From the NCBI RefSeq assembly GCF_010729485.1, contig NZ_AP022609.1:2666001-2730000 (forward strand): 64,000 bases of DNA. Reading direction: 5' to 3'. The notes beneath the pieces are model-generated. The model was not told the origin of the DNA and did no database searches. It saw nothing but the letters and a program-made list of their open reading frames with translations. The position numbers were made by a program, and so were the translations under genes. This DNA is from Mycolicibacter hiberniae. GTDB taxonomy: Bacteria; Actinomycetota; Actinomycetes; Mycobacteriales; Mycobacteriaceae. Shown here in pieces: positions 62,830-63,085 of the stretch. Every line of letters begins with the position of its first letter. Position 1 is the stretch's first letter.

Positions 62830-62956
62830 GCGGTCATGAGTGCCAGCGCGAAGCCCCGGCTTGCTGGCCGGCAACCCTCCAACCGCGGTGGGGTGCCCCG
62901 GGTGATGACCGGGTTGAGTAGCCACCGTCGGCTACGCGGCAAGCGCGGGTCCGCCA
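62830..62956 (+). promoter_or_regulatory. SAM-IV riboswitch
   Basis: The leader carries the SAM-IV pattern: GGTCATGAGTGCCAGCG at its beginning, GGCCGGCAACCCTCC, GGTGGGGTGCCCCGGG, and closing GATGACC (GGTCAT at 62832-62837 pairs with ATGACC at 62905-62910). A second hairpin GTAGCC...GGCTAC (62918-62923/62930-62935) and the trailing GCGGGTCCGCC follow. This class is found upstream of sulfur and methionine genes in actinobacteria. It would sense S-adenosylmethionine and control metC. Confidence 0.93.
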
Positions 62957-62988
62957 CAACGGGCCCCCCGAGTAGACAGGGGAACCTG

Positions 62989-63033
62989 ATGCGTGCCTCA
63001 TTGCGCCCGCTCGGCCGTTGTTGTTGTTGCTGA
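62989..63033 (+). CDS. Poly-cysteine leader peptide (uORF) before metC
   Basis: A 14-codon open frame from ATG 62989 reads [14 protein letters not shown] and then TGA. Its ribosome site AGGGGAA stands 5 bases before the ATG. Four successive Cys codons just before the stop fit cysteine-responsive attenuation uORFs described in mycobacteria: translation proceeds or stalls depending on Cys-tRNA supply. The frame continues 53 bp upstream of metC, between the SAM-IV aptamer and the structural gene. Whether the ribosome's progress opens or masks the metC ribosome site cannot be told without a structure model. Confidence 0.75.
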
Positions 63034-63085
63034 TCCCAGGCCCAGACTTGCTCTTCTGTCCAGCGATAACACACCCGAGGAACCG

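Follow-up and report, generated by a model that had tools for sequence, protein, structure and literature searches.

What does a gene for homocysteine synthesis gain from a leader that joins a SAM-IV riboswitch to a short reading frame ending in a run of cysteine codons? The question is raised by a locus of Mycolicibacter hiberniae at the end of a 64,000-nucleotide stretch of DNA (hereafter the window; contig NZ_AP022609.1, positions 2,666,001 to 2,730,000). A first-pass annotation had placed a SAM-IV aptamer, a peptide with a good ribosome site and metC in that order, and had proposed that one leader senses both SAM and cysteine. The order was borne out by the RF00634 match, the reading of the open reading frame and the metC family matches.

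All parts of the leader lie on the forward strand. A -10-like hexamer, TAAGAT (62819..62824), from which transcription would begin at about the first base of the aptamer, is followed by the aptamer itself (62832..62951; RF00634, 113.6 bits against a gathering score of 38, E = 3.2e-20, model positions 1-116 of 116), the only SAM-IV riboswitch found in the genome. Next comes an expression-platform hairpin, GGGTCCG/CGGGCCC (62947..62966), whose C-rich 3′ arm offers an alternative pairing with the GGGG of the ribosome site downstream. That Shine-Dalgarno region, CAGGGGAA (62977..62984; duplex energy -6.5 kcal/mol with the anti-Shine-Dalgarno letters), precedes an upstream open reading frame (uORF; 62989..63033) that runs from ATG at 62989 to TGA at 63031-63033 and encodes 14 amino acids, as judged from the reading of the frame, uORFs at the same position in relatives and the clade alignment. 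Its last four codons before the stop, TGT TGT TGT TGC (63019..63030), all encode cysteine, so that a cysteine run near a stop stands upstream of a sulfur gene, as in mycobacterial cysteine-codon attenuators. The cysteine and stop codons, together with CTCGG, make up the 5′ arm of a candidate stem (63010..63032); its 3′ arm, CAGCGATAACA plus CCGAG (63061..63079), overlaps the metC ribosome site with CCGAG. Between the uORF stop and the metC start (52 nt) lies an untranslated, C-rich and G-poor spacer (63034..63076; 15 C versus 7 G in the first 40 nt), a possible Rho-loading stretch, and reading the sequence from 63034 to 63085 revealed no run of four T, and so no U run of the kind that marks an intrinsic terminator. 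The metC Shine-Dalgarno, GAGGAA, occupies 63077..63082, and metC begins with ATG at 63086 and continues beyond the end of the window (63086..64000). No NCBIfam model (E up to 1) matched the 68-residue frame of which the uORF forms the end; the 14-residue peptide falls short of the minimum query length.

The 305 residues of the metC product within the window scored 499.2 bits against TIGR01326 (cut-off 495.1), and their best match was NF005872 (2.4e-186), below its cut-off because the gene is cut by the window's end. These matches identify an O-acetylhomoserine sulfhydrylase, in agreement with the earlier description of an enzyme that makes homocysteine from sulfide, and not a cystathionine lyase. 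MetC competes for sulfide. In M. tuberculosis, a SAM riboswitch is predicted to govern MetC, which increases under methionine starvation (accessible part of PMC9232105).

Of 180 distinct upstream sequences, 175 had a TANNNT motif no more than 20 nt before an aptamer-start motif; after shuffling, 38 of 180 did. Together with TAAGAT just before the aptamer in the window, this conservation suggests that the transcript probably starts at the aptamer and that the uORF lies deep in the leader, beginning about 157 nt from the start implied by the -10 box and behind SAM-IV. Mycobacterial cysteine uORFs are leaderless, according to the title of a 2020 article by Canestrari, whereas the uORF at 62989 sits behind a ribosome site, with the probable transcript start near 62832. 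The intergenic promoter region is common to metC and a divergent neighbour, monomeric NADP isocitrate dehydrogenase (60452-62749, reverse strand; TIGR00178). Farther along the reverse strand, a cobalamin riboswitch (58411-58550; RF00174, 44.6 bits) lies about 30 nt upstream of an open reading frame (56776-58380) that is PPE-like by appearance only, an arrangement resembling the M. tuberculosis ppe2 B12 switch.

Of 297 genomes of the genus, 289 contain a SAM-IV match. We gathered metC leaders by way of a SAM-IV search, a MetC search, the region and the leader DNA; 176 genus loci yielded 150 distinct leaders, after 20 duplicates and six loci without a usable leader (L139, L178, L200, L218, L239 and L241) were set aside. 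The aptamer in these 150 was recognised by a sequence motif rather than by the covariance model each time. The leaders fall into two classes: 54 short, or direct, leaders have no uORF and place metC 41-67 nt after the aptamer (counted from CAAGCGC), and 96 long leaders place it 78-289 nt after the same motif; because loci were top-scoring or taken by similarity to the window's MetC, with 30 picked for similarity to its leader, these class fractions are not prevalence. A Shine-Dalgarno-led uORF was present in 95 of the 96 long leaders (by the rule applied, L009 is the exception), starting a median of 42 nt after the aptamer, compared with a median of 46 nt for metC itself in direct leaders. The uORF thus occupies the presumed riboswitch-controlled start, the one that metC uses in short leaders. 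Two uORFs without cysteine, in leaders L003 and L015, overlap the metC start by four bases at their ends, as in termination-reinitiation coupling.

Cysteine is the most constant trait of peptides that otherwise share little: 77 distinct sequences occur among the 95 uORFs (for example MRRPTLCSCR, MARSTPRSCR, MRPDMCDLC and MCSRSPHPRLIVCRC), and the position of the cysteine codons shifts relative to the uORF start. In 1000 base shuffles, taken with the caveat that related leaders such as these are not independent trials, the observed counts lay far above the maxima: 83 of 95 uORFs contain cysteine (shuffled mean 45, maximum 57), 74 of 95 have it within the last four residues (mean 17.3, maximum 29), and 190 of 1,335 residues are cysteine (mean 63.4, maximum 87). 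CC or CxC occurs in 54 of the 95. An earlier collection, of 95 leaders drawn from several genera, had cysteine at 209 of 1,345 residues in the uORF frame versus 87 and 45 of 1,345 in the others; in another early set, of 76 distinct peptides, arginine was enriched 1.6-fold and internal methionine 2.8-fold over shuffles. Twelve of the 95 genus uORFs lack cysteine, among them MRSYR in four leaders, which beside MRSCR elsewhere looks like a loss. Within the window's clade, two adjacent cysteine codons are kept in 21 of 21 members, codon 12 being TGT in all 21 and codon 11 encoding cysteine in 20 (TGT in 10, TGC in 10). The annotation had staked its proposal on conservation of the cysteine tract, and at both scales, 21 of 21 in the clade and 83 of 95 in the genus, the tract survived the test.

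Two further features of the uORF were recorded. A methionine codon immediately before the cysteine codons is common (L028, L044, L051 and L316; for example MRSPHMCRCR), as if it were a second start. From a GTG at 62993, four bases after the uORF start, a +1 frame (62993-63085, forward strand) reads in frame into metC; an N-terminally extended MetC was discarded as a candidate, the frame being open in 12 of 21 clade members and stopped or in another frame in nine, and thus not conserved.

The cysteine uORF goes with metC, not with SAM-IV in general. A filter for a Shine-Dalgarno-led frame of 3-45 residues, starting at most 150 nt from the aptamer and with cysteine in its last four residues, was passed by 79 of 184 metC leaders, short ones included, versus one of 44 SAM-IV leaders of other genes; those 44 all come from outside the genus except L239, probably a metC leader missed by the motif. 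Inside the genus, two of 40 weaker SAM-IV leaders (65-83 bits), taken from 48 weaker places listed for 22 genus genomes, passed the filter, one with MGWCP and one with a 42-residue frame. The weaker matches (39-83 bits; L317-L356), in 22 genus genomes chosen for having several matches, have another 5′ consensus (of the CTTCACGAGATGCCGTCGCCAAGCT and GCTCACGAG types), often lie two close together and precede varied genes that do not look sulfur-related; these are possibly a diverged form of SAM-IV, or else a different RNA.

Outside Mycobacterium, 10 of 14 named Mycobacteriales loci carry, between SAM-IV and metC, an MCCC, MSCC or MCCR uORF preceded by a GGAGG-like site: four in Rhodococcus (L037, L039, L046, which is R. 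yunnanensis, and L048), four in Nocardia (L053, L054, L055 and L068) and one each in Aldersonia (L045) and Antrihabitans (L036, A. stalagmiti). The covariance model found SAM-IV in nine of 10 loci scanned (L036, L037, L045, L046, L048, L053, L054, L055 and L068), L039 lying outside the scan; it gave no SAM-IV match in Rhodococcus L049, whose uORF reads MCICGCSGR. A motif search alone detected no aptamer motif in L050 (Tsukamurella) or L052 (Nocardia wallacei), and the leader of L110 (Dietzia) is short and lacks a cysteine uORF. In another family of the order, cysteine-ending uORFs occur in three of six motif-classed metC leaders (L147, L159 and L260; not L262, L265 or L280).

We mapped the leader classes onto a quickly built MetC tree with 89 rows (80 genus, nine outgroup), where they require at least 13 changes versus a shuffled mean of 24, and where starred branches force at least five. 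Parsimony with equal costs favoured the uORF at the root (13 versus 16), a preference that was reversed when losses were weighted far above gains. The uORF leader is therefore likely, rather than shown, to be ancestral, since the tree rests on one protein with approximate supports. A fuller scenario, to which we give slightly less than an even chance, holds that a riboswitch and a cysteine-codon attenuator in series formed a two-input gate on the homocysteine-forming step, reading the product SAM and then the precursor cysteine, that this gate is ancestral to Mycobacterium, Rhodococcus and Nocardia, and that it was several times simplified to SAM-only control as metC took over the uORF's ribosome site.

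How might the two sensors be joined? The proposal of one leader sensing SAM and cysteine held in part: the cysteine tract is conserved and tied to metC, but the sensors look serial rather than side by side, because the uORF starts at the site through which, in short leaders, direct riboswitch control of metC would act. We consider it probable, with moderate confidence, that the leader takes two inputs in series, SAM-IV gating the uORF and translation of the cysteine-codon uORF gating metC. From what is known of the riboswitch family, SAM-bound RNA would hide the Shine-Dalgarno that follows the platform hairpin; this site starts metC in direct leaders and the uORF here, so that high SAM would switch off uORF translation and, with it, metC. 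At low SAM, the uORF would be translated, and the advance of ribosomes across its cysteine codons would report charged tRNA-Cys. In the window's clade, the metC site would stay open as long as a ribosome was held on the uORF, and rapid completion would let the stem close, its other arm adjoining the metC ribosome site in the clade and overlapping it in the window. If stalling opens the site and completion closes it, metC expression would be highest with both SAM and cysteine low. In clades without the stem, Rho termination in the spacer or re-initiation may provide the output. The uORF lies between aptamer and gene, and the ligand would control its ribosome site.

Every leader tested, 53 direct and 94 with a uORF, has a platform hairpin of at least 6 bp. 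Pairing of its C stretch with the following ribosome site over at least 5 contiguous bp was found in 46 of 53 direct leaders but in only 13 of 94 uORF leaders (mean scores 15.1 versus 11.0 shuffled, and 11.0 versus 9.1 shuffled, respectively).

In the window's clade (21 leaders), the cysteine and stop codons can pair with CAGCGAYAACA, which lies immediately before the metC ribosome site (in the window, 63022-63032 with 63061-63071), with 8-11 of 11 pairs formed in each member and 93.1% of stem cells paired, against 22.7-53.9% for slid partners. RNAalifold found this stem as the sole helix of the clade, and in the window it extends across CCGAG of the metC site. There was no double compensatory change, and column shuffles were as high (93.3%, 500 of 500), so that conservation and complementarity, not covariation, support the stem. 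The window's own segment folded no better than shuffles (z -0.23), nor did its whole leader (z -0.34) or its uORF-to-metC part (z -0.95); three chosen relatives gave z -2.4 to -4.8. A general stem between cysteine codons and metC site was rejected (RNAduplex mean z -0.32 over 86 leaders), and a contiguous-stem test reached p < 0.05 in 21 of 91 leaders, 17 of them from the window's clade. In a different clade, the cysteine codons of L028 and L316 match the stretch ahead of the metC ribosome site over 8 bp, TGTCGCTG/CAGTGACA (p 0.027 and 0.113), in a manner resembling the window's stem.

Folding with and without a ribosome on the cysteine codons, a check that the annotation had suggested, lent no general support to a stall that frees the ribosome site: besides the RNAduplex result, predicted accessibility of the metC site over 80 leaders was 0.52 with a cysteine-stalled footprint versus 0.49 without a ribosome (p 0.16), and stall-specific freeing was dropped. 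In the window, predicted accessibility rose from 0.21 without a ribosome to 0.45 with the cysteine-stalled footprint, and other footprints opened the site more (0.65 at the start, 0.64 at the stop codon, 0.56 on average elsewhere). These predictions support the view that uORF translation opens metC better than the view that only a cysteine stall does.

The sign of the cysteine effect might be weighed both ways. A ribosome stalled for want of cysteine could fail to finish the uORF and to feed metC, so that low cysteine would turn metC off and leave sulfide for cysteine synthesis. This would suit an enzyme that competes for sulfide, as well as the ppe2 precedent, in which uORF translation is required for the downstream gene (accessible part of PMC11260477), and the stem that favours stalling as the on state is absent from many clades. 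We nevertheless regard the opposite sign as unlikely, as the stem in the window's own clade favours on, translation attenuation of M. smegmatis cysteine genes is described, in the portions of the literature available, with stalling as the on state, and 52 nt from uORF stop to metC start is far for re-initiation. The output step could also lie in transcription, the translation state of the uORF setting Rho loading on the C-rich spacer and ending transcription before metC; this is quite possible, if rather less than an even prospect, and it may belong to the serial reading, as its output step, instead of competing with it. Spacers contain more C than G in 80 of 80 cases (mean 0.42 versus 0.21; median ratio 1.94), compared with 12 of 23 upstream regions of the window's other genes and 53 of 90 sequences lying before the aptamer. 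The pe20 Mbox leader is subject to Rho-dependent termination (accessible text of PMC12810186), and Rho was proposed in 2005 for mycobacterial cys leaders, in a prediction that its own authors called weak (PMC1262725, in part). Composition is a weak guide, however, as the first 60 nt of metC lean the same way, more weakly (C 0.36 versus G 0.26 in 95 leaders).

Two other explanations would dispense with cysteine sensing. The uORF might merely relay the SAM signal, its cysteine-rich end serving the nascent chain or RNA pairing. Arginine and internal methionine are enriched too, and in the window's clade the cysteine codons do pair with the metC leader; but that pairing is absent from most other clades, the peptides differ nearly everywhere except in cysteine, whose codons move relative to the start, and TGT and TGC are used equally at codon 11, the third base of which lies outside the stem. 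We judge a pure relay improbable. That the uORF is a chance frame with no role is barely credible: short frames are common in GC-rich DNA and a minority of the uORFs lack cysteine, but the fixed position, the ribosome site, a cysteine excess far above shuffles, near-absence at other SAM-IV genes and presence in other genera all speak against it.

Each element of the serial arrangement has precedents, here compared through the accessible portions of the articles cited. As the annotation stated, poly-cysteine uORFs are known in mycobacteria: cysteine-codon uORFs precede cys genes (PMC1262725, PMC4633059), carrying their cysteine codons close to the stop and lying before sulfur genes without an intrinsic terminator, as here. 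The published examples precede cys operons or cysA2, with no riboswitch mentioned in the parts available, whereas here SAM-IV and metC are involved. Riboswitch-controlled uORFs are known separately. In the M. tuberculosis B12 riboswitch-uPPE2-ppe2 relay (PMC11260477), a translational OFF riboswitch acts on a uORF that passes the signal to the gene, as proposed here, but the ligand differs and the ppe2 uORF is coupled by stop-start overlap rather than separated by a 52-nt gap. The Mbox-rv1805A-pe20 leader (PMC12810186) likewise sets a riboswitch over a conserved uORF, with Rho-dependent termination; its ligand is magnesium, and the role of the rv1805A uORF is called unclear by its authors. Term searches found no SAM-IV, cysteine or metC in PMC11260477, and no SAM-IV, cysteine or attenuation in PMC12810186. 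The uORFC-8-2 motif before cysS (PMC8632094) also holds tandem cysteine codons of a uORF inside a stem, but in Alphaproteobacteria (Rhodobacterales), with an intrinsic terminator and no riboswitch. In the Salmonella mgtA leader with the proline codons of MgtL (PMC6460261), metabolite or ion sensing and codon-specific ribosome stalling share one leader, with a different ligand, codons and phylum. The combination is absent from the treatment of SAM-IV in the available parts of PMC3766115, PMC3890552 and PMC2965389, and a riboswitch in series with a cysteine-codon uORF was not described in the literature searched, mostly without subscription papers or supplements.

Sensing of SAM and cysteine by one leader, in serial form, is the best explanation that we can offer from sequence comparison. 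As the arrangement is found in many relatives, one message probably answers to both methionine status and cysteine supply. Strains with short leaders would look ordinary, perhaps one cause of the combination's absence from the literature searched. With 96 long and 54 short distinct leaders and swaps between them on the tree, the cost and benefit of a second sensor can be compared across strains. Most studies treat riboswitches and ribosome-stalling leaders separately; if the serial reading is true, this leader would show product and supply signals combined in one RNA at the sulfide branch point between cysteine and homocysteine.
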